This document shows, piece after piece, positions 11,362-49,725 of a stretch of 64,000 nt of DNA. Position numbers and translations under genes: made by a program. The notes below the pieces were generated by a model. It was not told the DNA's origin. It saw nothing but the letters and a program-made list of their open reading frames with translations, and made no database searches. The stretch is from Helianthus annuus. Its lineage: Eukaryota > Streptophyta > Magnoliopsida > Asterales > Asteraceae. How positions within the stretch are numbered: position 1 is the first letter of the stretch; the number at the start of each line of letters is the position of its first letter. Where the stretch lies: assembly GCF_002127325.2 (NCBI RefSeq), contig NC_035435.2, positions 122,073,127 to 122,137,126 of the forward strand, written 5' to 3'.

Positions 11362-14300
11362 TGTGACAACCCTCACAATTCCAGGTATCCGTACAATTAA
11401 TTAATATTTAATTTGTGCTAAATGACTGTGCTTGATTACAACTGTGATTAAACTGCTTTCTGATATCTGTTACATACATACATATGCAATCATACTTTAT
11501 ACTGTCACTTCATTTATTTCATACAAACATTAGTGACAAACTTGATGCACAAAGCATAGTTAGCACAGTGAGCGGATAACCCAGAAAACATGCTGACGAT
11601 GCCAGCACCTAGACAGACAATGTTTTTGAGGCCAGTATGAGCCAGAGATAGAGTACTACACTAGTAGGGAGTGTAGGGAGGTGAGGACCATAAAACTGTA
11701 TCACTAGGTGATAGTTATAGTGCCCGGAAGTGCCTAAAACATACTTTAAGTGCAGAATTCTGTACTAAATAACCAAAATTCAGCATTTAATAATGCTAGT
11801 AAAGTGCAAAAACTTGACAAAATAGTCCTAGATATTTTCCCAAGTGTTGGGAATTAAAGGTGTCACTAAAAGTAATATAAAAGACACTTCAAAGATTAAT
11901 TTAGCACTTTAACGGACAACACCCAACCGAACAACCGGACTTTACCCGAAACATAAAAATATTGCCAAACACATTGTTTTTACTTTTCTGAGCTAGTTAG
12001 GGTCCCCGAACACCCTAACACAGTTTATATTATAACACACACCTTAACCCACTAACTTAACCTTTATAATCTAACTAGATCCATTACAACCCAACCCCAT
12101 ACCCCCCCTTTCGACGGTTACATGGGGACATCCCTCCCATGAATTCTTTTCATTATTTAAATGGTTGATGCTAGTAGATTTAGGAACATGTTAACCAAGG
12201 GTTATTAGATTTCTATAAAGCCCACTAGTTAACCACCTTCTCTCATCACCACCAACATTTCACCTTCACACTCTCCCTCTCTTCTCTTTGGTTCGGCCGC
12301 CACCACCACACCACCATACCACCACCTTCAAGTCCTTTTCAAGAAATCCATACATATCCAAGGGTGCTAGAGACCGAACAAGTAAGCTTGGTGTACTCGG
12401 AAGCTCAAGGACCGCTCTCGTTTTCTTTTATCCATCACTTTTACGCTTTGAAACTCCCCTAGCCTTGTGCTTGTAGTAAGTGCCTTAGATCTTCATCTTG
12501 TTCATATTTTTGTTGGTTAATAGTGAAAAGGATGGTGAAAATGTAAGAACTCTAAGGAACATAATCATAGTCTTGAAGTATAAACTAACTAGAGATGATA
12601 TATGGTTAAAGTAATGAAGAAATCATGTTGTTCTTATGTTGTTATGCTTATTGTATGTTGTTTGTTAGTAAAAATATTATGGTTCATCACAAAGGCTTGC
12701 TAGATCATGTTTAAAGACATGAACTAGCAAGATGTGAAGGTTAAAAATGTTGTGGATGATGAAATCATCCACACATAAGCTATGAACTTGATTACATACA
12801 TGTTTCTTGAATAATAAAGATCAAAATGGGTTGTAAACTTGTAAATCTAAAGATCTACGAATGGTTTTTCGAAAGAACCAAGTGAAAAATATTACTTTTG
12901 ATAACACTTGGATCTTACATAAAATTTACGCATTTTTAAGGGATAAACAAGTGTAGGAACACTTGTGTAAAAAGAGAATTTCACATAGAAATATTTTTAG
13001 AAATCATGACTAGAAGTTGTAAATGTTCAAATCCTTTAAAAATAAAGTTTTTAAGAAACTAACCACATTTTTAAAGGTAACAAGACTCACTAATTATGCT
13101 AGTAAGTTACTACTTGCTTTTATAAATTTTCCAAGTTCATAAGCTGATGGTTCATGCTTATTTTTGTCAAGATTGGTGATTAGAGATTGTATTGTTGGTT
13201 GATGATTGTTTGAATGATTTTACAAAAGAAAATGATATGCTAGTAAGCATGGACGCCTCCATTTACAAAGGAAACTCTGGCGAAATTTTTCTAGAATTTC
13301 AACACTTAGAAATATTTTTCTAACCCGAGTTTACAAATATATTTTTAACTTTATTTTTCTAAATAAACTTCGCCATCATTTTTATTTCAAAAATTACCAA
13401 GTACCGGAGGTGGATTTCGTAAATAAAATTTGATAAATATATATTTAGAATATATATATTTTATAATAAAACGCTTGTGTGATTGTTTGTTATTCTGTGC
13501 ACTAGATGTATTATTTTTAGGGTAAAAATAATATAACTTGAAAATACCATGAAATTACGACTCCAAAATAATACCAATGCTCTCACAAAATAAATATTTA
13601 AGTTACACAAGTATTGTTGCTTTACGACACGCTAAAACGTAACTTATGTATATTTCGGAAAATACTCCCATACGTATATTTTGATAAAGTGTTATTTTGA
13701 AAAATGTATGAGGTAAAATATAATATTTTTTGGGAAAAATATATATATATTGGAATTAAAATGTTTTAGACAAGTGATTAAAATATATTTTCTAAGTGGG
13801 ACTTAAAATATATTTTTTGGAATTATAAAGCATACATGTATAAATACCCCCATCCTTGGGAAGGAAATACACTTATAAAATAATTAAAAAGTGTGAATAC
13901 GAAATAGTTGCCTAACTATTTTCCTAAAAACACTATACCCTAAGCCAAGGCACGGCCCATCCGTCTAATAGGCATTAGTACGTGTAGGTCGTCGCGTAGC
14001 AGACCGAGTTGGAATTGACGACTATTTCAGGAGACACGCTTCAGTGAGTTCATGTCCCCCTTTTCTCTTTACTGTTTTCAGTTTTATACTTCGGGGGTGA
14101 AATACATGCGACAATTGTTACAAACATTTATTACATGGTATGGTTAGCGTAGGGAGGGTTTATACTACTAGATCATGTGAGGGGTGGGTACAACACTTGA
14201 GGCCATTAATCCTCGTTGTTAGGACCGAGGGACACAAGAGTGATAGATCGATTTGGGTGTAGCGAGCCCACACCCGTGAGGCCGGGGCGGCCCATAGAGG

Positions 14301-14871
14301 TGACTGTGTCTTCTAACCGAAGCCCGGTAACAAATTTGCTAGGTTTGAGTTTCCCTGCACTTTCGCACACATACCAGTGGCTTTGCAACCCATTGGTGAT
14401 CTCTTTTTCCTTATTGCTACATACCAGGAACTTTTATTTATACATGAAAGGTTTATACATACTCACTTTTTCATGAACTCGCTCAACTTTTGTTGATTTT
14501 TCAAACTACATGTATTTCAGGAAATTAGTGGATCTGACAAGGTATGCAATCTCGTCAAGCTGCGTAAGGAATAATGATGTCATCCGGGTTTAGGAAGTGT
14601 GACCCTTGCCTGGACGGGTTACAAGTCTATACCGTGTTTTTAGTCAAGTCTTTTGTCGTATCGTATGAACATGTTTTTAATTTATGTCGTGGTTGTATTA
14701 AGTCTTATGTGTCGACTTTTTAAAATAATGTTGTCGTGGTAACTTTAAAAACTTTATGAATGGATGAACATCATGTGTTTTATTTTCATATAGCATGGTT
14801 ATGATAATTGCTATGGTATTAAGAAGTCACACCAAATAAACCCACGCTTCCGCAAAAGCCAGGGTGTGACA
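11362..14871 (+). repeat. Element I 5' LTR, 3.5 kb
   Basis: It starts TGTGACAACCC and ends GGGTGTGACA, and is nearly identical to 21967-25489. The TATA box is at 12214-12220. A strong splice-donor-like site (TA|GTAAGTGC) lies at 12475/12476, leaving about 2.4 kb of LTR downstream. Short open frames (12288-12476, 14216-14476) recur in both LTRs simply because the LTRs are copies. The unusual length comes from A+T-rich sequence after the putative transcription start. Confidence 0.92.
12214..12220 (+). promoter_or_regulatory. Element I LTR TATA box
   Basis: TATAAAG, followed about 20-35 bases later by CT-rich sequence (ccttctctcatcaccacca) that looks like a plant transcript start region. The 3' LTR equivalent is TATAAAA at 22822-22828. 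Confidence 0.55.
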
Positions 14872-14874
14872 GCT

Positions 14875-14886
14875 TGGTATCAGAGC
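14875..14886 (+). other. Element I primer-binding site
   Basis: TGGTATCAGAGC, complementary to the 3' end of plant initiator-Met tRNA, three bases after the LTR end. Confidence 0.9.
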
Positions 14887-15048
14887 ATCGATCATAGCGA
14901 ACTAGGATTCTTTCTCGAGTCTAGACTATGATCACTAGGGCTCTCACGAAAACATTTTTACATTGCATACACTAAAACGTCCAGATCCAGGATACAAAAC
15001 ATTTTTACAAATAAAAGGCACAAATACACTTTTTCAAAAGTTATATTT

Positions 15049-15263
15049 CAGTCTTAGAGACTGAGGGAGTTCAGCCTTAGAGGCTGGGGAGGTTCAGCCT
15101 TAGAGGCCGGGGAGGTTCAGTCTTAGAGACTGAAGGGTTAAATCTTAGAGATTGGGGAGGTTTAGTCTTAGAGACTGGGAGGTTGGTCTTAGAGACCAGG
15201 GAGTTAGTCTGAGAGGCTATGGAGTTCAGTCTGAGAGACTGGGAGGGTAGTCTAGAGAGACTA
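15049..15263 (+). repeat. Array of ten covarying hairpins in the element I leader
   Basis: Ten units start at 15049, 15072, 15095, 15118, 15140, 15163, 15184, 15205, 15227 and 15248. Each is a stem of about 6 bp with a 3-nt TAG or GAG loop (a 4-nt loop in the last). Stems include CAGTCT/AGACTG, CAGCCT/AGGCTG, AATCT/AGATT, TGGTCT/AGACCA and TAGTCT/AGACTA. Most changes keep pairing; unit 3 has one A-C mismatch and some units have G-U pairs. The spacers are purine-rich. The array lies between the PBS and the first ORF, where retroelements carry packaging or translation-control RNA. The function is unknown. Confidence 0.85.
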
Positions 15264-15399
15264 GGAGAACTATTTGTTTGCATTATTGTGACTTACATGT
15301 TTATTTGATTTCATGTTGATATTTGTGCATATGTGTGATTGTGTTACAGACACCATGGTTTCTTCTTCAGACACATGAGTATCAGACACAGTAGACCCC

Positions 15400-16879
15400 A
15401 TGGTAGTTGTGTCAGACGACGAGATACCATCAGAGGGAGACGTATACACATCAGACACCACGAGCACGGACGACGATGATTTCCAGCCGTTCGCTCTGCC
15501 AGACATCGGAGTTCAGATACAGCCTGTTGATGGCATTCCTGCTGGGGATTTACCTCTTGCGGTGATCCCTGCTCCCATTCCGCTTGCTGCTTTCCCCGTG
15601 GTGGATGCGCCACTCGATGTCGTATCTGATGACGACATTGATCTGTTCGAGGAGGGTCCGCCTGAGGACGACTATGAGGGCGGGGCCCTGATTGATGCTG
15701 ATGTTATCCTTCCTATTGCTGAGGCCCCTGTAGAGAAGCTTCCTCTTGGTTCACCTGTCCCGGAATCCTTGGAGTCTGTGGCATCTGCGTCTTTGCACGA
15801 CCTTAGTGTGCAGCATCACCCTTCTGACGCCGACCCTGACATGGCGATGTCAGCTGCACCGGTCCATCACATGAGTTTGAGTTTGACCCGTAGCTCCCAT
15901 TGATCCGTTATTTGACATCCCTGCTGATTTTGATATGGATCTAGTTGATCCCGAGCCTGTCATGGCCCCAGAGCCTGTTGTTGCTCCTGATCCTGCACCA
16001 GAGCACGACCGTGTTCTTGATGATGCCCCAGCCGTTGCACCGCCTGATATGGGTGCACCGGCCATTGCACCTCTTGTTGATGATATACCCATTGCTGACC
16101 TTCCCGTTGTTGCTCCACCATTGGTGGACGATCCTGTTGTTGATGCACCATTACCTGATCCCGTGCCGGCATTGGTTGACCGCGCACCTTTCGCCGCTCA
16201 CATAGATCCTCGTTATGCAGACACCCGCAACGGGTGGATCGATGATGATGACGATTACCCACCGTTTGTGCTACCTGTCACTCCTCCAGTAGCACCTGTT
16301 TCTGCACCCACTGATATTCCATTGTTTCCCCCACACACCACGGATGTTCATCGCACTGATCTTCTCATTACGTTCCTCCAGGACATACCGCCACCTCGTC
16401 CTGGAGAGGGGTCATCGAGGCAGCCGTCTGTTTCTGTTCCACCCGTACTGTCATCATCTTTACCGTTCACATCTCAGTTTCCTCATGTTGCACCACCTAC
16501 TGCACCATCTTTCATACCATCGAGCGAGCCATTTTTATGGACTACGCCCCCTGTCATGCCATTGTCTGATCCGTACCACCCGTACCATGTTGGGTACACT
16601 ACGGAGGACATACTTACATCCTTGATGATGCAACAGGATGCATTGACACGTCGTATTCAGGAGTTGGAGAGAGCTCCACGACCACCTTGCCACTGTCAGA
16701 CCCCCTTTGCAGCACCACACACCCCTCGTCCGCTTTCCCCTGATTCAGACGTTCGTTTCTTGACATCTGAGCAGCAGATTGCATATTTGCTGCGCGCCTG
16801 TCGTGCCTTAGAGGAGGACTGGTTGCACATGCGTCACTTGCTTTTCTCTCGTTTTCCTCCTCCTCCGCCATCAGCATAG
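15400..16879 (+). pseudogene. Element I extra ORF before gag, acidic and proline-rich, frameshifted
   Basis: An open frame runs from ATG 15400 to 15903 and a second from 15935 to 16879 in another frame; a short stretch in a third frame near 15880 (HEFEFDP) shows that two small indels split one gene. The combined protein is about 490 residues with Asp/Pro/Val/Ala-rich degenerate repeats (APDP, VAPP, DDIP, DDDD), a predicted short helix (MMQQDALTRRIQELERAP) near the C-terminus and an ending of FPPPPPSA. I see no zinc finger, enzyme motif or membrane segment. An acceptor-like site (TTACAG at 15350) lies 50 bases before the ATG. It is not part of canonical gypsy coding capacity and I do not recognise a family. 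Confidence 0.7.
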
Positions 16880-17253: not shown

Positions 17254-17992
17254 ATGCCTCCAAGACGTGACCCGCGCATGCCCACTACTGAGGCGGAACT
17301 CCAAGGGATCATTATCGCAGCTATCGCACAATACGCTGCCTCTCATGCAGAGACGAGTTGAAATGTCTCAAACAACAACGGCAATAGCAATCCACCCAAT
17401 GGTAATGTTAATTCGTTTGAGATATACTATGATACATTTGGATATTTATAGCACGTCCGCTGATACCATTTGTAAATTCTAACGTTTGTGCAGGGTGCAC
17501 TTACAAGCAATTTCTCGATTGCAAGCCTGTGAATTTCGACGGCACAGGAGGTGCTGTTGCGTTTGTTAGGTGGGCTGAAAAGACAGAATCTGTCCTTAGA
17601 ATGAGCAAGTGTGCTCCCGAGCAACAAGTGACCTACATCTCAGGGCTGTTTCTGGATGGAGCCCTATCGTGGTGGAATCTGCAAGTGCAAACTTTAGGTG
17701 AAGCTGCTGCTTATGCGTTATCATGGAATGAGCTGAAGGAGCTCATGAGAAGCAAGTACTGCTCACGTGCTGAAATTCAAAAGCTAGAGACTGAGTTCTG
17801 GCACCTAAAAATGGAAGGTCCCAAGATTGTAGAGTATGTTCAGAGATTTCACGATTTGTCCCATGTAGTGTCGTACATGGTCACACCCGAGTTCAAACGT
17901 GTTCAGCGCTTTATCTAGGGATTGGCACCTCAGATCATGAGTATGGTTACCACGTCCAACCTGCAACCATCACAGAAGCCATAGATCTCAGT
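17254..17992 (+). pseudogene. Element I gag N-terminal half, broken
   Basis: The start MPPRRDPRMPTTEAELQ at 17254 is typical of this gypsy gag group. A TGA at 17359-17361 interrupts it. A 92-bp intron-like insert (17402-17493) separates NPPNG from CTYKQFLDCKPVNFDG; removing it restores frame. The capsid-like core follows ([32 protein letters not shown]), then a TAG at 17916-17918 in place of the Trp of RFIWGLAP and a one-base deletion near 17960, after which the frame is that of the downstream pol ORF. Two nonsense codons and one frameshift make the product inactive. Confidence 0.85.
17402..17493 (+). other. Intron-like insert in element I gag, 92 bp
   Basis: It begins GTAATG after AATG and ends tttgtgcag before GGTGCAC. 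It is A+T-rich with stops in all relevant frames. Its length (92, remainder 2 on division by 3) is exactly what is needed to rejoin the two gag frames. This fits a small plant intron; an unrelated insertion with chance GT-AG ends is the alternative. Confidence 0.6.
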
Positions 17993-20900
17993 GTGGCTCT
18001 TACTGAGGAAGCCATTAGATTGAACAAGTTTTCAGTTACTGAGCAGAAGAAGAAAGAGACTCATGTGGAGTCGTCTGGTGAAAACAAACAGAAATTTTCA
18101 AACTTCAAGCAAGGTACCAGTAATGTGAACAAGAAGGGTGAATCAAGCACACCGGCCAGAGCTGCAACCGGTGTTGAGAACAAAGGAAAAGGTTATATGG
18201 GTACTCTGCCCAAGTGTGATACATGCCAACGCCACCATTCTGGTCAGTGCAGATTGAGGAAGTGCGAGTCATGTGGGAGGAACGGCCACACGAAGGATAC
18301 GTGTTGGGCCGGAACTGGTGCTAGGCGCGTTGGTAATCGAGGTTATGGGAATAGTAATGGAAACCGCCAACAAGGAGGAAATGGCGGAAATGGAAACCGT
18401 GGAAATGTTGCGAATCAAGCTGGGAATGGAAATCGCAACCAAAACAACACTCAAGCTGGAAATGAAAATGGTAATGGTCGAGGACCGGGATGTTTTAATT
18501 GTGGAGAACTTGGGCACTTCAAGAGGGAATGCCCGAAACTGAATCAAGCCCGTGGAAGATTGTTCAACATTGGCGCAAGGGAAGCGCGCCAGGATCCAAA
18601 CGTTGGGACTGGTACGTTCCCTATAAACCAACGCTTTGCATCTATCCTGTTTGATACTGGTGCCGACTATAGCTTTATATCATTAGAATTTAAGAATATG
18701 TTTGGGTTAGCTGCTAGTAAGTTAGACGTTCCGTACTCAATTGAACTGGCTAATGGGAAGCTAGTTGAAACCAATGAGGTTGTCAGAGGTTGCGTAATTG
18801 AGCTGGGAGAACGCGAGTTCACTTTGGATCTACTACCAGTCGAGTTGGGAAGCTTCGACGTGGTAGTAGGGATGGATTGGTTGTCATGCAACAAAGCCGA
18901 GATTGTGTGTCACGAAAAGACCATCCGCATCCCAATAGAAGATGGAGAAACGGTCGTGGTTCACGGAGAGAAGCATGATACACCCCTAAGAATCATTAGC
19001 TGTCTGAAGGCTAGAAAGTGTTTGCAGAAGGGATGTGTCGCCTTCTTGGCACACATCGTGGATAAAGAAGTTGCTGAGCCGAAGATCGAAGACATTCCAG
19101 TCGTGAAGGAATATCCTGAAGTCTTTCCAGGATTACCACCACAAAGACAAATCGAGTTCCACATTGACTTAGTTCCAGGCGTTGCGCCTGTGGCTAAGGC
19201 ACCTTACCGACTTGCACCTTCGGAGATGCAAGAGTTGTCAACGCAACTCCAGGAGTTGTTAGACAAGGGATTCATCAGACCAAGCTTCTCACCTTGGGGA
19301 GCTCCAGTCTTGTTTGTTAAGAAGAAGGATGGTAGTTTTCATATGTGTATCGACTACCGGGAACTGAACAAGTTGACTATCAAAAATAGATATCCTCTGC
19401 CAAGAATTGATGACCTATTTGATCAGCTGCAAGGTTCAAGTTTCTACTCAAAGATCAATTTGCGATCAGGTTATCATCAGCTGAGAATACAAGAGGAAAG
19501 TATTCCCAAGACTGCTTTTAGAACTCGTTATGGACATTACGAGTTTCTGGTGATGCCGTTTGGGTTGACAAACGCGCCAGCCGTTTTCATGGATTTGATG
19601 AACAGAGTTTGTAAGCCGTACCTCGACAAGTTCGTGATCGTATTCATCGATGATATTTTGATCTACTCAAAGACGAAGGATGAACACGAACAACATTTAG
19701 GAGCTATTTTGGAGCTACTTAAAAAGGAGAAGTTGTATGCCAAGTTCTCAAACTGCGAGTTCTGGTTACGCGAAGTCCAATTTCTTGGACATGTGGTTAA
19801 CGGAAATGGAATCCATGTGGATCCAACAAAGATCGAGGCAATCAAGAATTGGGAGACTCCAAAGACGCCAACCGAGATTCGACAGTTCTTAGGTTTGGCT
19901 GGTTATTATCGAAGGTTCATTGAGGATTTCTCAAAAATCGCCCAACCTTTGACTTCCCTTACCCAGAAAGACAAGAAGTTCGATTGGGGAGACAAACAAG
20001 AAGAAGCGTTTCAGTTGTTGAAGGACAAGCTTTGTAATGCACCAATCTTATCGCTACCCGAAGGAACGGATGACTTCGTGGTATACTGTGACGCCTCGTG
20101 TCAAGGTTTGGGTTGCGTGTTGATGCAACGACAGAAAGTTATAGCATATGCTTCTCGCCAGCTGAAGGTTCATGAGAAAAATTATACCACGCACGACTTG
20201 GAATTAGGCGCGGTGGTATTTGCGCTGAAGATTTGGCGACATTATTTGTACGGTACGCGATGTACAATCTTCACTGATCATAAGAGCCTGCGACACATAT
20301 TCGACCAAAAGGAGCTCAACATGAGACAAAGACGCTGGGTCGAACTATTGAACGACTACGACTATGAGATCAAGTATCATCCGGGGAAGGCGAATGTGGT
20401 CGCCGATGCCCTAAGTCGGAAAGAAAGGATCAAGCCCATAAGGGTTAGGGCTTTGGAAATGATTGTCCAGACAGACCTCTCATTGCGCATTCGTGCCGCG
20501 CAGAGAGAAGCTCTCAAAGAAAGGAACATTGAGGATGAGTATCTCCGCGGGATGGAGAAGCAATTGGCGCCAAACGAGGAGGGAACTTTGGGCTTCATGA
20601 AACGAATTTGGGTTCCTCTGTTTGGTGGTTTGAGAAAGGTTATTTTCAACGAAGCTCACAAGTCACGGTACACAATTCATCCAGGAGCGGATAAGATATA
20701 CCAAGATCTTAAGGATTTCTACTGGTGGCCTAGGATGAAAGGCGATGTTGCAGTTTATGTTAGCAAGTGTTTAACGTGCGCCAAGATAAAAGTCGAATAT
20801 CAAAAGCCTTCAGGTCTTCTGCAGCAACCTGAAATACTCAAATGGAAATGGGAACAGATTTCAATGGATTTCATAACAAAATTGCCAAGAACGCCCAAAG

Positions 20901-21931
20901 GCCACGATACTATTTGGGTAATAGTAGACCGCCTAACGAAATCTGCGCACTTCCTGCCCATCAGGGAAAAAGATAACACGAGTAAACTAGCTGAGATATA
21001 CATGAGAGAGATCGTTGCACGACATGGAGTGCCTCTCTCAATCATCTCTGATAGGGATGGAAGATTTGTGTCAAGGATTTGGCAATCCTTTCAAGAAGCA
21101 TTCGGATCTCAGCTGAATCTAAGTACAGCATTTCACCCGCAAACGGATGGACAGAGTGAGCGAACGATTCAGACATTAGAAGATATGCTACAAGCTTGTG
21201 TAATGGATTTAGGTGGAAGTTGGGATACTCACCTACCATTGGTCGAATTTTCATACAATAACAGTTATCATGCAAGCATTCAAGCCGCACCGTTCGAGGC
21301 TCTTTATGGACGCAAATGTCGATCACCGATTTGTTGGGCTGACGCAGGTGATAGACAGCTAGTTGGTCCGGAATTGGTCCAGGAAATGACAGAAAAAATT
21401 GCACAGATCCGAGAGCGCATCAAGGCGGCTCGTGATCGACAAAAGTGTTATGCGAACCGAAGAAGGAAAATTCTGGAATTTGAGGTAGGGGATATGGTAT
21501 TATTGAAGGTTTCACCCTGGAAGGGTGTGGCACGCTTTGGAAAGCGTGGAAAGTTAAATCCGCGCTACATTGGTCCATTCAAAATTCTGAAGAGGGTTGG
21601 TTTGGTAGCATATAAGTTGGACCTACCCGCTAAACTTAATGGTGTTCATGATACATTCCATGTATCAAACTTGAAGAAGAGTCCAACACAAGAGACCGTA
21701 GTCATTCCTGCTGATGAAGTTCATATTGACGACACGCTCCACTTTGTCGAAGAACCAGTAGAGGTTACCGATTGGAAGATTAACAAGACACGCCGGAGTA
21801 GTGTCAAACTCGTCAAAGTTCGATGGAACGCAAGACATGGTCCAGAATTCACGTGGGAACGTGAGGATCGTATGAAAGAAAAGTACCCCCATTTATTTCC
21901 CAAGACCCCTGCAACTAGAAGCAGAGCCTAA
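17993..21931 (+). CDS. Element I gag C-terminus and pol polyprotein (protease, RT, RNase H, integrase, chromodomain)
   Basis: An open frame of 1312 codons. In order: a C/H-rich cluster (about 75-104), a CCHC knuckle [14 protein letters not shown] (about 167), protease FDTGAD (about 220), RT with [13 protein letters not shown] (about 551, FIDD box), RNase H beginning VVYCDAS (about 697), integrase zinc-binding HPGADK...CLTCAK (about 895-925), the DDE core with MDFITKLP (about 958), SDRDGRF (about 1018) and a Glu in GQSERT (about 1054), and a C-terminal chromodomain-like [15 protein letters not shown] (about 1275). All catalytic residues I can check are present. The first codons belong to gag, so the listed ATG is only the first Met in an open frame after the upstream frameshift. 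Confidence 0.92.
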
Positions 21932-21966: not shown

Positions 21967-24900
21967 TGTGACAACCCTCACAATTCCAGGTATCCGTACA
22001 ATTAATTAATATTTAATTTGTGCTGAATGACTGTGCTTGATTACAACTGTGATTAAACTGCTTTCTGATTTCTGTTACATACATACATATGCAATCATAC
22101 TTTATACTGTCACTTCATTTATTTCATACAAACATTAGTGACAAACTTGATGCATAAAGCACAGTTAGCACAGTGAGCGGATAACCCAGAAAACATGCTG
22201 ACAATGCCAGCACCTAGACAGACAATGTTTTTGAGGCCAGTATGAGCCAGAGATAGAGTACTACACTAGTAGGAAGTGTAGGGAGGTGAGGACCATAAAA
22301 CTGCATCACTAGGTGATAGTTATAGTGCCCAGAAGTGCCTAAAACATACTTTAAGTGCAGAATTCTGCACTAAATAACCAAAATTCAGCAATTAAAAATA
22401 CTAGTAAAGTGGAAAAACTTGACAAAATAGTCCTAGATATTTTCCAAAGTGTTGGGAATTAAATGTGTCACTAAAAGTAATATAAAAGACACTTTAAAGA
22501 TTAATTTAGAACTTTAACGGACAACACCCAACCGAACAACCGGACTTTACCCGAAACATAAAAATATTGCCAAACACATTGTTTTTACTTTTCTGAGCTA
22601 GTTAGGGTCCCCGAACACCCTAACACACTTTATATTATAACACACACCTTAACCCACTAACTTAACCTTTATAATCTAACTAGATCCATTACAACCCAAC
22701 CCCATACCCCCACCCTTTTGACGGTTACATGGGGACATCCCCCCCCATGACTTCTTTTCATTATTTAAATGGTTGATGCTAGTAGATTTAGGAACATGTT
22801 AACCAAGGGTTATTAGATTTCTATAAAACCCACTAGTTAACCACCTTCTCTCATCACCACCAACATTTCACCTTCACACTCTCCCTCTCTTCTCTTTGGT
22901 TCGGCCGCCACCACCACACCACCATACCAACACCTTCAAGTCCTTTTCAAGCAATCCATACATATCCAAGGGTGCTAGAGACCGAACAAGTAAGCTTGGT
23001 GTACTCGGAAGCTCAAGGACCGCTCTCGTTTTCTTTTATCCATCACTTTTACGCTTTAAAACTCCCCTAGCCTTGTGCTAGTAGTAAGTGCCTTAGATCT
23101 TCATCTTGTTCATATTTTTGTTGGTTAATAGTGAAAAGGATGGTGAAAATGTAAGAACTCTAAGGAACATAATCAAAGTCTTGAAGTATAAACTAACTAG
23201 AGATGATATATGGTTAAAGTAATGAAGAAATCATGTTGTTCTTATGTTGTTATGCTTATTGTATGTTGTTTGTTAGTAAAAATATTATGGTTCATCACAT
23301 AGGCTTGCTAGATCATGTTTAAAGACATGAACTAGCAAGATGTGAAGGTTAAAAATGTTGTGGATGATGAAATCATCCACACATAAGCTATGAACTTGAT
23401 TACATACATGTTTCTTGAAAAATAAAGATCAAAATGGGTTGTAAACTTGTAGATCTAAAGATCTATGAGTGGTTTTTCGAAAGAACCAAGTGAAAAATAT
23501 TACTTTTGATAACACTTGGATCTTACATAAAATTTACGCATTTTTAAGGGATAAACAAGTGCAGGAACACTTGTGTAAAAAGAGAATTTCACAAAGAAAT
23601 ATTTTTAGAGATCATGACTAGAAGTTGTAAATGTTCAAATCCTTTAAAAATAAAGTTTTTAAGAAACTAACCACATTTTTAAAGGTAACAAGACTCACTA
23701 ATTATGCTAGTAAGTTACTACTTGCTTTTATAAATTTTCCAAGTTCATAAGCTGATGGTTCATGCTTATTTTTGTCAAGATTGTTGATTAGAGATTGTAT
23801 CTTGTTGGTTGATGATTGTTTGAATGATTTTACAAAAGAAAATGATATGCTAGTAAGCATGGACGCCTCCATTTACAAAAGGAAACTCTGGCGAAATTTT
23901 TCTAGAATTTCAACACTTAGAAATATTTTTCTAACCCGAGTTTACAAATATATTTTTAACTTTATTTTTCTAAATAAACTTCGCCATCATTCTTATTTCA
24001 AAAATTACCAAGTACCAGAGGTGGATTGTCGTAAATAAAATTTGATAAATATATATTTAGAATATATATATATATTTTATGATAAAACGCTTGTATGATT
24101 GTTTGTTATTCTGTGCACTAGATATATTATTTTTAGGGTAAAAATAATATAACTTGAAAATACCATGAAATTACGTCTCCAAAATAATACCAACGCTCTC
24201 ACAAAATAAATATTTAAGTTACACAAGTATTGTTGCTTTACGACACGCTAAAACGTAACTTATGTATATTTCGGAAAAATACTCCCATACGTATATTTTG
24301 ATAAAGTATTATTTTGGAAAATGTATGAGGTAAAATATAATATTTTTGGGAAAAATATATATATTTTGGAATTAAAATGTTTTAGGCAAGTGATTAAAAT
24401 ATATTTTCTAAGTGGGACTTAAAATATATTTTTCGGAATTATAAAGCATACATGTATAAATACCCCCATCCTTGGGAAGGAAATACACTTATAAAATAAT
24501 TAAGAAGTGTGAATACGAAATAGTTGCCTAACTATTTTCCTAAAAACACTAAACCCTAAGCCAAGGCACGGCCCATCCGTCTAATAGGCATTAGTACGTG
24601 TAGGTCGTCGCGTAGCAGACCGAGTTGGGATTGACGACTATTTCAGGAGACGCGCTTCAGTGAGTTCATGTCCCCCTTTTCTCTTTACTGTTTTCAGTTT
24701 TATACTTCGGGGGTGAAATACATGCGACAATTATTACAAACATTTATTACATGTTATGGTTAGCGTAGGGAGGGTTTATACTACTAGATCATGTGAGGGG
24801 TGGGTACAACACTTGAGGCCATTAATCCTCGTTGTTAGGACCGAGGGACACAAGAGCGATAGATCTATTTGGGTGTAGCGAGCCCACACCCGTGAGGCTG

Positions 24901-25489
24901 GGGCGGCCCATAGAGGTGACTGCGTCTTCCAGCCGAAGCCTAGTAACAAATTTGCTAGGTTTGAGTTTCCCTGCACTTTCTCACACATACCAGTGGCTTT
25001 GCAACCCATTGGTGATCTCTTTTTCCTTATTGCTACATACCAGGAACTTTTATTTATACATGAAAGGTTTTTACATACTCACTTTTTCATGAACTCGCTC
25101 AACTTTTGTTGATTTTTCAAACTACATGTATTTCAGGAAATTAGTGGATCTGGCAAGGTATGCAATCTCGTCAAGCTGCGTAAGGAATAATGATGTCATC
25201 CGGGTTTAGGAAGTGTGATCCTTGCCTGGACGGGTTACAAGTCTTAAACCGTGTTTTTAGTCAAGTCTTTTGTCGTATCGTATGAACATGTTTTTAATTT
25301 ATGTTGTGGTTGTATTAAGTCTTATGTGTTCGACTTTTTAAAACAATGTTGTCGTGGTAACTTTAAAAACTTTATGAATGGATGAACATCATGTGTTTTA
25401 TTTTCATATAGCATGGTTATGATAATTGCTATGGTATTAAGAAGTCACACCAAATAAACCCACGCTTCCGCAAAAGCTAGGGTGTGACA
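21967..25489 (+). repeat. Element I 3' LTR, 3.5 kb
   Basis: TGTGACAACCC to GGGTGTGACA. It differs from the 5' copy by scattered substitutions and small indels. It carries the same TATA (22822-22828) and donor-like site (GT at 23084). Confidence 0.92.
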
Positions 25490-26482
25490 CGCTGAATGTT
25501 GTTTAATGTTCATGCAAACCCTTGTCGGATCAGCAAGAATCTGGTTCAATGACTTACCCGCTCGAAGCGTTCGAAGCTTCGATGACCTCAGCAAAAGGTT
25601 CCTAGCCAACTTCTCCCAACAAAGGCGGTATGTTAAAGATGCTACAGTGATCTTTCAGATCAAGCAAAGAGATGATGAAAGCCTTCGAGAGTTCATAGAG
25701 AGATACAAGAAAGAAGGTCTAACCTATGTGGGGGCAGACGAAAAGATGAGGGTGGCCGGTTTTATGTATGCCATTACATCCAAGTACCTCACAAGGGATT
25801 TCAACAAATCCCTCCCTAAGACCTTGGAAGAAGCTCTTGAAGGGGCTGAGGCCCACATCCGAGGGGAGGAGGCAGTAGATATCAAAGAACAAAGGAAAAG
25901 AGGATCCAGCTGGCGAGGTAACAGCCCAGCTAGAAAGAGGGAGAACTTTAACTCCTATGACAGACGCCAAAAGGGTTCAGACCATCGAATGTCTGAAGGT
26001 CGTAAACCTTCCAGCATGGAGAAAGGCATAAGTTTCACACCCCTCACAAAGACTCCTCAAGAAATCCTCGCAACGAAAGAAGTCAAGCAAAACTTTCGGC
26101 CTCCTAGGCCTCTCCCCAAAAGCAGAAAAAACGAGAACTCCACACAATACTGTGAGTTTCATTAAGAAAAGGGTCACCACACCAATGATTGCTTCCAGCT
26201 CAAGAAAAGAATTGAAGAAGCTGTTAATTCCGGAGAACTTGCTCACTTGGTGAAAGGGGTAAGGGACAAAATGGCTGAAGGAAAGGGCAAGGAAGTCAAT
26301 ATGGTGTATTTTGATGGAAGGGTTCCACACAAGTGGCAACGGTTGGAAGCTTGGGAGCTTCAGTGTGTTTGCTTTCATCCAACAGAGAGAGACCCCCTCT
26401 CAAGCCCTCTTGTGGTAGAAGCAACTGTAGGAACGTTACAAACAAGCAGGGCATACATAGACACTGGTGCTTCCACTGAATC
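25490..26482 (+). pseudogene. Element A gag, 3' part, and start of protease
   Basis: This continues the frame broken at 11361. It holds the capsid core (ARIWFNDLPARSVRSFDDLS, FLANFSQQRR, ESLREFIERYKKE) and a zinc-knuckle remnant CEFH.EKGHHTNDC with a TAA at 26163-26165 inside it. The protease signature AYIDTGAS at about 26450 is followed by a frameshift into the pol frame. Related Tat gags have an uninterrupted knuckle here. Confidence 0.85.
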
Positions 26483-30045: not shown

Positions 30046-30252
30046 ACGGGAAAGATTGGTTTGTATTTCACAATGTTGCATTTCAAGAGTTGAACTATGA
30101 AAACCTTTTGTAAAAATATCTCTTGAATGAATGAAGTTGTTTTATCAAATTTTTTCTTTCTATCCTAAAATCAGGTTGAGAACCTAGCAAGAAACTCCAT
30201 GGCAAGGGCCATGTAAGGGGTTGAGCTCCCAGGCCACATCGCTCAATAGGTT
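30046..30252 (+). other. Element A 3' untranslated part, left of element B
   Basis: Non-coding sequence after the integrase stop. Its last five bases AGGTT (30248-30252) are the target duplication of element B, and it resumes at 37892. Confidence 0.8.
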
Positions 30253-30676
30253 TGTTAGTGCACTATGTCTGTTGACTTCGTCTTGTATCAAGTCATATAA
30301 TAGGATTGGATAGGATAATCAGTGTCCGAGGTGCTAGAAACTGATTTTGATGTAAATGGTGGTGATTTCGCTTGAAAGTGCCAAGAACCATTTCAAGCGA
30401 AATCTAATTCAAGTGATTCCGCTTGAAAATGTCCTTGACCATTTCAAGCGAAATCAACATGTCTATAAATAGGGGTTCTGTTTATTTGGAGCGGGATTAT
30501 CAGGGTTGTCTTGTAATCAGTAACGAGGTGCTGCCGAATTGTCTCCAGGTGCTGTAATCAATATTATATCAATATAGAGACTTTATAATTACATCGAGCG
30601 TCCGTTTCATTGATTCCGCCTTTGACACGGATAAACAACTCTTCTGATCGCATTTGGGTCACACAACGATCCTACA
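30253..30676 (+). repeat. Element B 5' LTR
   Basis: TGTTAGTGCAC to GATCCTACA. It contains two hairpins built from GATTTCGCTTGAAA (30364-30377) with its complement at 30391-30404, and GATTCCGCTTGAAA (from 30415) with its complement ending at 30455, just upstream of the TATA box. Confidence 0.93.
30464..30471 (+). promoter_or_regulatory. Element B LTR TATA box
   Basis: TATAAATA directly downstream of the two hairpin motifs. The 3' LTR copy is at 37677-37684. Confidence 0.65.
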
Positions 30677-30678
30677 AG

Positions 30679-30690
30679 TGGTATCAGAGC
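30679..30690 (+). other. Element B primer-binding site
   Basis: TGGTATCAGAGC, two bases after the LTR; matches initiator-Met tRNA. Confidence 0.9.
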
Positions 30691-30882: not shown

Positions 30883-31185
30883 ATTCCGCTTGAACGTAAC
30901 TTTCTGATTCCGTTTGAAATCAACAACAGATTCCGCTTCAAATGACTATTCCGCTCGAAAATAGCACTTGATTTCGCTTCAAACCTGCTATTTCGCTTGA
31001 GAATAAATCAGATTTCGCTTGAGTCCTATATTCCGCTTGAAGAATAGATCTGATTCCGCTCGAAGTATTATTCAAGTGATTCCGCTTGAAAGTTGGATTC
31101 AGATTGAATTTCTGTTTTCGCTCCAACTGTGATTCCGCTTCAATTTGTGTTTCCGCTTGAGATCCTTATTTCGCTTGAAAGAGGA
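30883..31185 (+). repeat. Array of 14 degenerate ATTCCGCTTGAA motifs in the element B leader
   Basis: Copies such as tattccgcttgaacg, gattccgcttcaaat, tatttcgcttgagaa and gattccgctcgaagt recur about every 20-25 bases, all in the same orientation. The same 12-14 base word forms the hairpins of the LTR. Variation is concentrated at T/C and G/C positions. They lie between the PBS and gag and do not encode a recognisable peptide. Confidence 0.85.
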
Positions 31186-35533: not shown

Positions 35534-37465
35534 CAGGGAGTTTAACATTTTCTATAAATAAATAAACAATATTTCAAAAACCCTAAAAATTGAAAAACTA
35601 AAAACCAAAAATATGTTTTTAGTTTGTTAAAAAACTTGAAAAACCAAAAATATGTGTTGATTGAATATGCCGAAACCCTCACGGCGGAACAAACATGATT
35701 ACTTTCACAAGATTGAAAAACGGTTTTCAAACTGTCGAAAATCAATGGGTTGTAAATCATGGGGGTACTTTATGTTAGATTTTCTGCAAAACAGAGCACT
35801 TTAGGCAGAAAATGGATGGCGAGACAAAGCTATCAGTATCGGTTTGTCAAATTTTCTTTTAATGATTTTGTATTTTAGGGGGAGAAAAATTGTCAGAAAA
35901 TCCAAAAACATTAGAAAATTTGAAAAAGCCAAAAACATGATAAAATTCAAAATTCGAGTTTTGTGTAAAAAGAGGAAATGATAGTACATCAGTAGACAGT
36001 TACAGTATGCTAAAAAAATGTAATGATTAAATAGCGTTAAAGAGTTTCACTGATGATATGCCGATAGGTTTTTATACATTTAGTAAACTTTTTCGGGATA
36101 TAAACCTAAATTCAAACTTGCTTATTTCGTGGGGAACACTACTTGGATATATAGGTAACCCTTGAAATCTCGTTTGAAGGATCCCTCTTTCTGAGATACT
36201 AGGTCTTTATGCGTAGTGATATCTGGGGTATTATTCCGAGACTTCTGGTGAATGGAAGTTCTGACCTAGTCCCCGAATAATACTTTTCGCATTGCTTGAA
36301 ATACAGCGTCGCCCTTAGCAAAAATTATGAAACAATAAAATTGATAATCATTGTTGAAGAAAAGATCCTCTAAAGGGGACACACCTAAAGTCGAACCGTC
36401 ATCTCTCTGCTGAACGGAAGTTCTGACCTGAGCTCTCACGGTTTCGCATCTAACCCCTTACAGATATCATCTAGGTATATTCACCTGTAAGACTGAATAT
36501 TGGGATCTGGATATGGGAGTATATTCAAGAGGTGGGACACATGAATGAGTTTAAGTTCTTAAAACACCTAATTCGTATCCTGAATCAGTTGAAATTTGTG
36601 TGAAAATTTAAGTGGATCAGTATATCGACAATCTAAGTGAATTGTTTAATTCTTAATGTGTAACTAAGCTCAACGGTACTTGTGACTTGTCAAAAACTGA
36701 TATGATCCTCTGACGTATACTCAAACAAAAATATTGTCTGTAAATATGTTTGTAAATATTTCTTTACTGCTTTATATTTTCAGAAAAATACAAAAAGATT
36801 TTTGATTCTGCTTTATTTTCGACAACCGATGTCTGAGATGCTGAGTTTCAAAATCTGAGTAAGCTGATTGTGTTTCTGAAAATAAAACAAGTTCATTAAT
36901 TTGAAACTTGAATTAAAAATCAAAAATCAAAAACAGTTTGTGATATCTCCAAGGTCATTAGTTTGGACTTGGATGATTAACTGTGGGGGATTTGGATGCT
37001 TATATTGTTATAGAGCCAGTTTCCGATTCTGTTCGCTGAATCTGCAAAATTCTAAAGATTGTTGATAGGGGGAGTGATATAGAAAGTTTGAATTGCCAAA
37101 TTATGATTTCTGAAATTTTATAATGTTATTACTCATAAACGTATGAGTATTGCAGGTAAGAGTCCAGACTACGATCCCAGAAGCATAGTCTAAGGGGGAG
37201 TCTGAAGACGAGCTCAAAGCAAGGGGGAGCTTGTAGCTAGAAAGCGAGGTGTCGATCCCTAAAGCATGGAAGCTTGACGAAAGGGGGAGCCTAAAGAAGC
37301 TGATAAAGATAGAGCCAGGATGAGAACCTGTGAAGAAAAGAAAGAGATTGATTGATGCTTACAGTGTTAGACAATTTGGAAAGAGCTTGAAGACTGATCA
37401 AGACTGAAGATGTGTCATGATAGAGAATCGACACTGAAGACTTCGTCAATGTCCAAGGGGGAGTC
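35534..37465 (+). other. Element B 3' non-coding region with six polypurine-tract-like motifs
   Basis: No ORF of note. AGGGGGAG occurs at about 35877, 37067, 37192, 37222, 37282 and 37455, the last directly before the 3' LTR. Pol is absent. Confidence 0.8.
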
Positions 37466-37891
37466 TGTTAGTGCACTATGTCTGTTGACTTCGTCTTGTA
37501 TCAAGTCATATTATAGGATTGGATAGGATAGTCAGTGTCCGAGGTGCTAGAAACTAAGTTTGATGTAAATGGTGGTGATTTCGCTTGAAAGTGCCAAGAA
37601 CCATTTCAAGCGAAATATAATTCAAGTGATTCCGCTTGAAAATGTCCTTGACCATTTCAAGCGAAATCAGCATGTCTATAAATAGGGTTCTGTTTATTTG
37701 GAGTTGGATTATCAGGGTTGTCTTGTAATCGGTAACGAGGTGCTGCCGAATTGTCTCCAGGTGCTGTAATCAATATTATATCAATATAGAGACTTTATAA
37801 TTACATCGAGCGTCCGTTTCATTTATTCCGCCTTTGACACAGATAAACAACTCTTCTGATCGACTCATTTGGGTCACACAACGATCCTACA
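37466..37891 (+). repeat. Element B 3' LTR
   Basis: TGTTAGTGCAC to GATCCTACA, followed by the duplication AGGTT. Small indels and substitutions separate it from the 5' copy (for example gatcgcattt versus gatcgactcattt). Confidence 0.93.
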
Positions 37892-38295
37892 AGGTTCAAG
37901 GGTTGAATGAACCTATATAAGGGGTGAGTTCCTAAATCAATACAACTCCATGAGACTTATTAATTAAAAATAAAAGTGTCTCATAGACAGGTTTTGTGAT
38001 GATGGTAAAGTGATGATGTATTCGGGATGATGATGTAAACGACTGTAATCAACGAATAGTTGATAGAATCAGGTTGAGAAATGTTGAGATATTTGGATGT
38101 AATCACAGTTCAGATAAGAGTTCAGATATTGGACGTGAAAGTTTTTATTAAATGTACTTTATTTTATGCTTGAAGTCTGATGGTAAAGGGAACCAGGTAT
38201 GTGGGTTTTTTTAAAAGTTGATTGTTATTTACAAAATTGCCCCCTGTTCACATTGGTTCTCACACTAAAGATGGTTCTCGCATGAACCCTACCTG
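37892..38295 (+). other. Element A remnant right of element B
   Basis: Non-coding. It does not resemble the 9701-10320 LTR, so element A was cut before its 3' LTR. It ends abruptly where an antisense LTR-type sequence begins (cctacc|tgtcacaccccc). Confidence 0.6.
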
Positions 38296-38831: not shown

Positions 38832-41163
38832 CGTATTCATCGACGATGTCTTGATTTATTCCAAATCGAAAGCCGAACACGCGCAACATCTACGTTTAGT
38901 CCTCGAATTACTCCAGGGGAACTAACTCTATGCCAACTTCTCCAAGTGCGAATTCTGGTTAGAAGAGGTTCAGTTTCTGGGTCACATCGTGAATAGTCAA
39001 GGTATCCATGTCGACCCTGCGAAGATTGAAGCAGTTAAGAGTTGGATTATGCCAAAGAACCCGTCTAAAGTCCGTTCTTTTCTCGGATTAGCGGGCTATT
39101 ATCGACGATTTATCAAAGGATTCTCTAAGATCGCTGTGCCGCTTACCGCTCTTACGCATAAAGACAGGTCTTTTGTTTGGGGAACCGAACAAGAGTCTGC
39201 ATTCCAAACTCTCAAGCATAAGCTTTCTAATGCTCCCGTTCTCTCATTGCCTGATGGGAACGAAGATTTCATTGTCTACTGTGATGCTTCCAACCTTGGC
39301 CTTGGTTGTGTCCTCATGCAACGAGACAAGGTTATAGCTTACGCTTCTCGACAGCTCAAAATCCACGAGAAGAACTACACAACCCATGATCTCGAGCTAG
39401 GCTCGGTTGTCTTTGCATTAAAGATATGGCGACACTATCTGTATGGTACCAAGTGTACGATCTTCACCGATCACATGAGTTTACAAAACATCTTTAATCA
39501 AAGAGAGCTCAATATGCGTCAACGCCGATGGGTAGAACTCCTCAACGATTACGACTGCGAGATTCGTTATCACCCAGGCAAGGCAAATGTCGTTGCCGAC
39601 GCGCTCAGCAGACAGAGTTATTTGCTCAGTATTCGTAATACCCAAGCCCAATACGATCTCGAAACCCTCATCTGCGAAGCCCAACATGCTTGCTTTAATG
39701 AACGCACCTTGAAGAAGGAGAGAATCTATCACGATGGAGCTCAACTTGTAAGCAAATAGAATGGGATCTTCTATTTTCTGGATCGAATTTGGATCCCTAA
39801 GCGGACCGAATTACGAAAGATTTTAATGGATGAAGCCTACAAATCTCGGTATTCTATTCATTCCAGTGCCGATTCTTTGTTACAAGTACTGGTGGCCGGG
39901 TATGAAAAGGGATATCGCCCTCTATGTCGGAAGATGCCTGACTTGTGCAAGGGTCAAGGCTGAACATCAAAGGCCCTCTGGCTTACTCGAACAACTGCCA
40001 ATTCCTATATGGAAGTGGGAGAGCATAGCTATGGATTTCATAGCCAAGCTTCCACCCACGTCGTTAGGTCACGACAGCATTTGGGTTGTCGTTGATCGTT
40101 TGACCAAATCAGCCCACTTTTTGCCAATACGAGAAGACTACAAGGTAGAGCGATTAGCCCGAATCTACAACGATGAGATCATTTGTAATCATGGTACACC
40201 TCATGACATCATCTCTGACTGTGATGCTCAGTCTACGTCGCGATTGTGGGAAACGTTTCAAGCAGCTCTCGATACGTCGCTTAATCTAAGTACCGCATTC
40301 CATCCTCAAACCGACGGACAGACTAAAAGAACGATCCGTACTCTTGAAGACATGCTCCGTGCGTGTGTCATAGACTTCGGTGGTAATTGGAACAAATACC
40401 TGCCGTTAGTCGAATTCTTGTACAATAACAGTTATCATACCAGCATCCAAATGGCACCATTCGAGTCCCTATAAGGAAGGAGATGTCGATCGCCTATTGT
40501 ATGGCACGAGATCGGTCACTCGCAATTAACCGGTCCGGAGCTATTACAAGAAACGACTGACAAAGTCCTCCAGATCCGAGACAACTTGTTGAAAGCTCGA
40601 AGTAGACAGAAAAGTTACGCCAATAGAAGACGCCAGCCCCTGGAATTTGACGTTGGCGACTACGTACTCCTAAAGGTATCACCTTGGATGGGTGTGGTCA
40701 GATTCGGCAAGAAAGGGAAACTAGCGCCTCGATATGTTGGACCTTTTAAGATTCTGGAGAGGATCGGAAAAGTCGCCTACAGACTCGAACTACCGGAGGA
40801 ACTTAGTAACGTCCACCCGACTTTCCATGTGTCAAACCTCCGAAAATGCCTGGCTGAGCATGATTTGATTGTACCTCTCGATGACCTTCAGATAAACGAA
40901 ACGCTACACTTCGTGGAGAAGCCTGTCGAAATCATGGACCGCCAAACCAAGCAACTCAGGCGCTCGCGCATTCCTATTGTGAAAGTCTGATGGGAAGGCA
41001 AACGAGGCGCGTAGTTCACTAGGGAACTCGGAAGTGACATGAAGGCGAAGTACCCGCAGTTATTCAAGTGAAAGTCTAGAGAGAGAAAGTTCTCAGCGTG
41101 ATTCACGGTGATGTACAGCTTTCAGCCTAATTTCGGGACGAAATTCCCTAAACAAGGGGATGC
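38832..41163 (+). pseudogene. Element C' : truncated pol sharing its LTR with element C
   Basis: It begins inside RT at the FIDD box (cgtattcatcgacgatgtc) and parallels 47408-49725 almost base for base: RT thumb, RNase H ([12 protein letters not shown]), integrase and chromodomain-like tail. Private defects are TAG 39757-39759, a deletion near 39868 and TGA 40988-40990. Defects shared with C are TAA 40472-40474 and TAG 41012-41014. It runs into the LTR at 41164. The 5' part, gag and 5' LTR are missing. Confidence 0.9.
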
Positions 41164-43971: not shown

Positions 43972-43984
43972 TGGTATCAGAGCC
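43972..43984 (+). other. Element C primer-binding site
   Basis: TGGTATCAGAGCC, three bases after the LTR end; initiator-Met type. Confidence 0.9.
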
Positions 43985-44029
43985 ATAACTATTGGGAATT
44001 AGGCTAGACTCGACCTAGTCCGGGTCGAT

Positions 44030-44040
44030 GTCTTAGAGAC
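44030..44040 (+). repeat. Single GTCT-TAG-AGAC hairpin in the element C leader
   Basis: Identical to the core of several units of the element I array. The surrounding leader sequence (aggctagactcgac, tagactatag) also resembles the element I leader before its array. Confidence 0.6.
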
Positions 44041-44220
44041 CTAGACTATAGTTAGGTACCAACAGACCAAGCTTATGTACTATATATCCTGCTAATTCTC
44101 ATCATCACTGCACACGAATTTTCAGACAGCGACAAGTGACTCAGTCGGGATTAGGTGTGAAAACCGCAAAACTCTCGACTAAACTACTTGTTTGATCTAT
44201 ATTTATCTATAAAACACGGG

Positions 44221-49633: not shown

Positions 49634-49725
49634 AAGTCTAGAGAGAGAAAGTTCTCAGCGTGATTCACGGTGATGTACAACTTTCAGCCTAATTTCGGGA
49701 CGAAATTCCCTAAACAAGGGGAGGC

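Follow-up and report, generated by a model that had tools for sequence, protein, structure and literature searches.

Ten tandem hairpins lie in the leader of a 14.1-kb LTR retrotransposon (element I) of Helianthus annuus, between the primer binding site (PBS) and the first start codon, and the two halves of their stems change together. Among the ten units of this one copy, covariation of the stem halves is supported beyond a null model that allows for the relatedness of the units, and neither chance nor ordinary drift explains the pairing well. Judged from this one copy, selection on the RNA structure of the array is plausible. Our favored reading, which is tentative, is that a hairpin array was kept at the RNA level in an active element lineage, and that it was used most likely as a multivalent landing site for Gag in the selection of RNA.

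The array and its host element

The array occupies positions 15049-15263 of the window (the entire 64,000-nt stretch of DNA that we analyzed) and holds ten tandem inverted repeats on the forward strand, each of 15-16 nt and spaced 21-23 nt apart. The first-pass annotation had described these repeats and their period; both TRF, whose rows over 15047-15267 have a period of 22-23 and 8.9-9.9 copies, and our listing of the units confirm them. From unit 1 to unit 10, the start-to-start spacings are 23, 23, 23, 22, 23, 21, 21, 22, and 21 nt.

Written as 5' arm, loop, and 3' arm, units 1 (15049-15063) and 4 (15118-15132) both read CAGTCT-TAG-AGACTG, and unit 9 (15227-15241) reads CAGTCT-GAG-AGACTG. 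Unit 2 (15072-15086; CAGCCT-TAG-AGGCTG) has C-G instead of T-A at pair 4. Unit 3 (15095-15109; CAGCCT-TAG-AGGCCG) also has C-G at pair 4, and its pair 2 is broken (A-C). In unit 5 (15140-15154; AAATCT-TAG-AGATTG), pair 3 has gone from G-C to A-T and pair 1 is broken (A-G). Pair 1 is T-G in unit 6 (15163-15177; TAGTCT-TAG-AGACTG), and pairs 1 and 2 are both altered in unit 7 (15184-15198; TGGTCT-TAG-AGACCA). Unit 8 (15205-15219; TAGTCT-GAG-AGGCTA) has T-A at pair 1 and T-G at pair 4, while unit 10 (15248-15263; TAGTCT-AGAG-AGACTA) has T-A at pair 1 and a 4-nt loop. Overall, the loop is TAG in seven units, GAG in two, and AGAG in one (nine loops of 3 nt and one of 4 nt). The inner stem pairs (CT/AG) are invariant in all ten units, and each of the outer four pairs varies.

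The linkers between the units are rich in purines (53 of 68 letters) and have no C (0 of 68), with GGAG in 9 of 10. Their runs of G might form a G-quadruplex. If G-T pairs are allowed, the 220-nt array has 34 five-pair stem registers, versus a mean of 6.1 for the window (standard deviation 3.8), and the array is the window's maximum. We rejected a protein-coding repeat, as no open reading frame (ORF) of at least 100 amino acids is listed across the array. We also rejected a known RNA family: when 14800-15450 was compared to Rfam 15, the sole match was to mir-9014, with 18.4 bits (the gathering score is 63) and E = 0.67.

Element I has the features of a Ty3/gypsy element: two LTRs, a PBS, and the order gag-PR-RT-RH-IN. 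The 5' LTR (11362-14871) starts with TGTGACA and ends with TGTGACA, and the 3' LTR (21967-25489) was placed by self-BLAST (11362-14874 paired with 21967-25493) and by reading its ends. The element is flanked by CGTTG before the 5' LTR and CGCTG after the 3' LTR, so that 4 of 5 letters are equal. The LTRs differ by substitutions at 70 of 3512 aligned positions (0.020), and 45 of these 70 are transitions. The PBS, TGGTATCAGAGC, is an exact match at 14875-14886 and is of what we take to be the initiator-Met type. It ends 162 nt before the array, and the ATG at 15355 begins 91 nt after it, which agrees with the earlier placement of the array between the PBS and the first ORF.

Directly after the PBS, there is a stem-loop, GATCATAG...CTATGATC (14890-14933, forward strand), which is weak (z = -1.36; 19 of 200 shuffles fold as well). 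By eye, another gypsy element in the window (element II) has a similar layout, with a stem-loop directly after its PBS (43983-44060); the z scores for the two stem-loops are -1.4 and -2.3. The stem-loop of element II contains GTCTTAGAGAC, which is the core of array units 1, 4, 6, and 7. When we searched the window with a covariance model of the units, the best match outside the array was at 44030-44040, or 46 nt downstream of element II's PBS, with E = 0.46 (the next matches have E = 1.2 and 1.7); the location of this match was spotted post hoc. It is possible that the array originated from a PBS-stem motif.

After the leader comes an extra, proline-rich 5' ORF region (15355-16879, forward strand), whose frame is broken in this copy, with open pieces at 15400-15903 and 15935-16879. 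Neither piece has a match in Pfam. For 15935-16879, we found 289 homologues among 8,000 scored candidates, and the named ones among the matches listed are from Helianthus. The closest one listed is a Helianthus annuus protein (100% identity over 98% of the query), and longer homologues without the interruption exist. The gag-pol block (17529-21931, forward strand) comprises a gag piece (17529-17918) and a frame with a zinc knuckle, protease, RT, RNase H, and integrase (17993-21931), all identified with Pfam. The zinc knuckle is of the CCHC type. Pfam gave no chromo domain in element I at a threshold of 1e-3; the C terminus of the integrase presumably resembles that of Tekay.

The window contains other retroelement sequences. 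A second gag-like ORF (PF03732; 25506-26165) begins 16 nt past the 3' LTR, so element I probably inserted into or beside another retroelement. A third element has short LTR-like repeats (30250-30678 and 37463-37893), a PBS at 30679, and an ATG at 31305. Between its PBS and its ATG (at 30884-31179), it has thirteen TTCCGCTTGAA-like motifs, so two different elements of the window have repeats after the PBS. Element II has 16 copies of the palindrome CCGATCGG in duplicated stretches (41739-43094 and 50307-51639), compared to a mean of 0.1 and a largest count of 2 in mononucleotide shuffles. The spacing of several of these copies is close to 17 nt, and CGGAC...GTCCG arms lie between neighbors. The palindrome resembles the CGG-CCG boxes that were called Sirevirus-specific (PMC2829016, in excerpt), and here it is in a Ty3/gypsy element. 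Finally, two copies of a 5.1-kb stretch (38832-43968 and 47406-52517; 95.7% identical), which has matches to the end of the pol of element I, surround a single PBS, leader, and gag. This arrangement suggests that the element is tandem or recombined, and not a simple insertion.

Pairing, covariation, and folding

Across the ten units, 58 of 60 stem pairs form (96.7%), if we include two G-U pairs (pair 1 of unit 6 and pair 4 of unit 8). The other two are the broken pairs of units 3 (pair 2) and 5 (pair 1). The first-pass annotation gave five stem variants, and every one of them is in the array, but it omitted the 2 of 60 broken pairs and the 2 of 60 G-U pairs. Two-sided changes are present at 4 of the 6 stem positions, in 7 cells.

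We compared these values to column shuffles, in which the 3'-arm letters were shuffled (500 shuffles each). In this comparison, which ignores kinship among the units, no shuffle matched the fraction of paired cells, the 7 two-sided cells, or the covariation score (0 of 500 for each), and 3 of 500 reached two-sided change at 4 of 6 pairs. The number of further pair types was ordinary (219 of 500 shuffles reached the observed value). If the partners are slid by 1-3 columns, 32-48% of the cells pair, although this control favors any structure that is drawn from the same sequences. When whole 3' arms were permuted among the units, 58 pairs were reached in 27 of 400,000 permutations.

The arms also pair with those of other units. 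Within units, 58 of 60 pairs form, versus 48 of 54 between adjacent units, whichever neighbor is taken, and units that are four apart also pair highly in one direction (34 of 36). In a 10 x 10 table of arms, the best partner for the 5' arm of unit 5 is its own 3' arm, and the 3' arm of unit 7 is fully paired only with its own 5' arm, so local pairing explains the changes in these two units better than pairing between units does. Several other arms have many partners that are equally good.

As a null model that includes relatedness, we simulated tandem duplication with independent mutation, and we kept the runs that were within 0.07 of each arm's observed divergence. We counted the runs that combined at least 38 paired cells among the 40 outer ones with two-sided change at all four outer pairs. 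With 65% transitions (close to the LTRs' 45 of 70), none of 3983 runs in one setting and none of 4000 in another gave this joint outcome. With 90% transitions, it occurred in 0 and 1 per 4000 runs. Even in the most lenient setting, with transitions only, it occurred in 2 and 6 per 4000 runs (38 paired cells alone were reached in 2-3%). Separately, among 20,000 shuffles of a 22-nt unit, 134 had a stem of at least 6. We therefore rejected a chance repeat, given the stem density, the column shuffles, the arm permutations, the duplication null, and the unit shuffles. Within this single copy, the column shuffles and the duplication null agree with the earlier statement that the stem halves change together.

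The first-pass annotation had also called the covariation a signature of selection on RNA structure. The covariation is significant, but it is not diagnostic of selection: template switching can mimic it, and in its predicted ground state, the RNA pairs unit with unit.

Through template switching, hairpin arms can arise and be repaired as a matter of mutation only (PMC8794818, in excerpt). Slippage or strand jumping, in reverse transcription or in replication, might have enlarged the array, with one arm of each small hairpin copied onto the other by template switching, so that complementarity was restored without any benefit to the element. We consider this possible, if somewhat unlikely. In RNA genes, template switching accounts for multi-base compensatory changes and for the repair of stems (PMC8794818, in excerpt). 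In unit 7, two adjacent pairs differ jointly from the commonest units, as a single switch would give, and repeats are present in another leader of the window too. None of the ten loops is inverted, but switches that involve only an arm would leave the loop as it was. The persistence of two broken and two G-U pairs argues against continual repair, and mutation alone does not predict linkers that remain purine-rich and free of C.

The age of the array bears on both selection and arm-copying. The arms differ among the units by 0.23-0.25 (about 24%), which is far more than the 0.020 between the LTRs, so the array presumably formed and diverged before element I inserted. The expected number of changes after insertion is about 1 in the 120 arm bases (about 1% per copy), and we see 2 broken pairs; the array was probably close to fully paired when element I last moved. 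Both selection in an active lineage and continuing arm-copying are compatible with this.

The RNA of the array is predicted to be strongly structured. RNA from 15040-15275 folds better than all of 200 dinucleotide shuffles (z = -5.9), and the reverse strand of the array folds less well (-64.0 versus -94.1). In the minimum-energy fold of 15046-15270, the units pair with one another (-92.7 kcal/mol, versus -53.5 for ten separate hairpins). Just 2 of the 10 units have a probability above 0.5 of forming their own hairpin in the global ensemble, versus 6 of 10 if the pairing span is limited to 30 nt. The longer leader (14870-15380) again has a long-range fold, which is less exceptional (z = -3.3). 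When the 3' arms were re-dealt among the units, the mean loss of stability was 6-8 kcal/mol, but for three settings of the span, 12, 9, and 17 of 300 re-dealt arrays matched or exceeded the stability of the original, so the effect is modest. We rejected a kissing-loop dimer initiation site, as the loops (UAG or GAG, and one AGAG) are not self-complementary.

Possible roles of the array

To our knowledge, how plant LTR retrotransposons choose their own RNA for their particles is poorly known. For Ty1 and Ty3, the packaging sequences are described as lacking a precise definition, and the RNA structure of Ty3 as uncharacterized (PMC4974528, in excerpt). In the plant element BARE, the RNA for translation and the RNA for packaging are separate pools (PMC3735527, in excerpt). 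Packaging of MMTV requires single-stranded purines (GGAGAAGAG) that bind Gag, and a similar GGAG in HIV-1 has been remarked on (PMC8096270, in excerpt).

If the array is a Gag landing site, it would be transcribed within the genomic RNA, and its pairing would have been kept while the lineage replicated because the genomic RNA uses it. The short stems would space out the C-free purine linkers, most of which have GGAG; the zinc knuckles of Gag would bind the exposed linkers and thereby pick out full-length RNA for the particles; and tandem amplification would give more Gag sites. The near self-complementarity of each unit could also allow units to pair from one RNA molecule to another, which might help dimers to form. 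The first-pass annotation had put forward packaging, dimerization, and translation control as roles for the array, and we treat all three as candidates. The position in the leader fits a candidate packaging signal of the retroviral type. We count the covariation, the pairing with own arms, the divergence of the arms relative to the LTRs, the purine linkers, and the CCHC knuckle as support. On the other side, a single copy was seen, the predicted fold prefers long-range pairing between units, the loops have no kissing capacity, and template switching can imitate the covariation. Also, in two sunflower expressed sets, Tekay elements are missing or under-represented (PMC7730604 and PMC9784723, both in excerpt); if element I belongs to the Tekay clade, this counts against a Gag site.

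More broadly, some plant Ty3/gypsy elements might carry a modular, expandable packaging signal: a series of hairpins, perhaps amplified from a stem-loop motif next to the PBS, that spaces GGAG linkers as Gag sites, with the copy number tuning RNA selection or dimerization. We regard this generalization as doubtful. Still, a covarying repeat array is a compact and countable candidate for a signal of RNA selection. If copies of the element differ in their number of units, then natural variation makes the packaging question testable. The array also offers a good opportunity to tell selection on RNA shape apart from mutation by arm-copying.

A serious rival to the Gag site is that the array controls translation or splicing. 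A structured array ahead of a 3' splice-like site and the first ATG could slow scanning or keep some of the RNA unspliced, and so balance genomic RNA against mRNA. A U-rich stretch that ends in TTACAG lies directly before the start of ACACCATGG (15344-15358), and in element II, TGTTGCAG precedes the start of gag. In one annotated homologue (P0005), the N-terminal extension departs from the genomic reading upstream of the TTACAG junction, perhaps owing to a predicted splice. Plant LTR elements are known to undergo splicing, and BARE makes spliced and unspliced pools (PMC3735527, in excerpt). The splice sites of the leader, though, were called by eye from the consensus, and while covariation demands a structure, control of splicing or translation does not need ten copies of it. 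We consider such control unlikely. By eye, TTTCAG/GAAATT...GACAAG/GTATGC (14515-14547, in the LTR) and TTACAG/ACACCATGG (15344-15359) resemble a small exon and splice sites; if these putative sites are used, then the PBS and the array are intronic.

Alternatively, the array might act as DNA. A dimeric plant factor could bind the dyad-symmetric repeats as cis-regulatory boxes, as has been proposed for the repeated motifs of Sireviruses. Those motifs are palindromic, with 8 to 32 copies per element, and form clusters both in the LTR and ahead of the env-like ORF (PMC2829016, in excerpt), and element II has its 16 CCGATCGG boxes in the same window. Sequence-specific binding would not require the outer four pairs to change letters and yet stay complementary. 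The linkers are strongly strand-asymmetric, which points to RNA, and the array is downstream of the promoter as we placed it by eye (TATAAATA at about 13841). Overall, binding at the DNA level seems quite unlikely.

We give even less credence to a by-product on the host's side, in which the array yields double-stranded RNA and is a hotspot for small RNAs, with no gain for the element. The palindrome clusters of maize Sireviruses do have an excess of small RNAs (Bousios 2016, as cited in PMC10760457, in excerpt), but a by-product does not explain why pairing was kept up as the units diverged.

Comparison with known systems

The first-pass annotation knew of no equivalent of the array in plant gypsy elements. 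Among open-licence papers, judged by their titles and the openings of their abstracts, we likewise found no leader hairpin array in these elements. We also searched viral and prokaryotic contigs, which say little about plants. The perfect 15-nt unit is found exactly once in each of 63 viral-contig stretches; a two-unit pattern has 4 matches in the window's array and none in the viral or the prokaryotic contigs; and with the pol protein of element I, 10 stretches of viral contigs fit the pattern and none was confirmed.

Ty1 is a copia-like element. Like the array, the PAL sequences of its leader are self-complementary stretches in the 5' part of an LTR retrotransposon's RNA, and a role in dimers has been proposed for them (PMC5454406, in excerpt). 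Ty1 has three palindromes with a loop-loop contact, whereas the array's loops lack self-complementarity.

Among plant gypsy elements, Retand elements have tandem repeats in an internal non-coding region, but between pol and the 3' LTR instead of in the leader, and in the available text of that paper, the words "hairpin" and "leader" do not occur (PMC11963269, in excerpt). Group 2 of the sunflower Tekay elements resembles element I in having a proline-rich ORF upstream of gag; the portion of the paper that we covered does not mention a leader array (PMC11728184, in excerpt). We rejected membership in this group: the extra ORF is in the same place, but two pieces of the Tekay 13-2 nuclear localization motif were searched for and are absent from all 120 homologues of the extra ORF that were listed, many of which are partial.

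The packaging region of MMTV is similar in that it lies in the leader near the PBS, with a purine stretch (GGAG) beside stem-loops (the ssPurines in SL4; PMC8096270, in excerpt). It is a single site with a complex fold, established by binding and packaging assays, while the array is a series of ten candidate sites.

Clusters of palindromes have been described in the Copia Sireviruses, at other sites in the element (PMC2829016, in excerpt), which qualifies the earlier claim of novelty. The repeated motifs of Sireviruses are in Ty1/copia elements, in the LTR and in the linker before env; nearly all have a CGG-CCG core, and the available text describes no covarying tandem hairpins (PMC2829016, in excerpt). 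The array has the core CT-TAG-AG and is part of a Ty3/gypsy 5' leader. As the core, the place, and the superfamily all differ, we rejected the array as a set of Sirevirus boxes. These palindromic boxes are nevertheless its nearest described relatives: both are short, dyad-symmetric motifs, in many copies, that cluster before an extra ORF in a non-coding part of a plant LTR element (PMC2829016, in excerpt).
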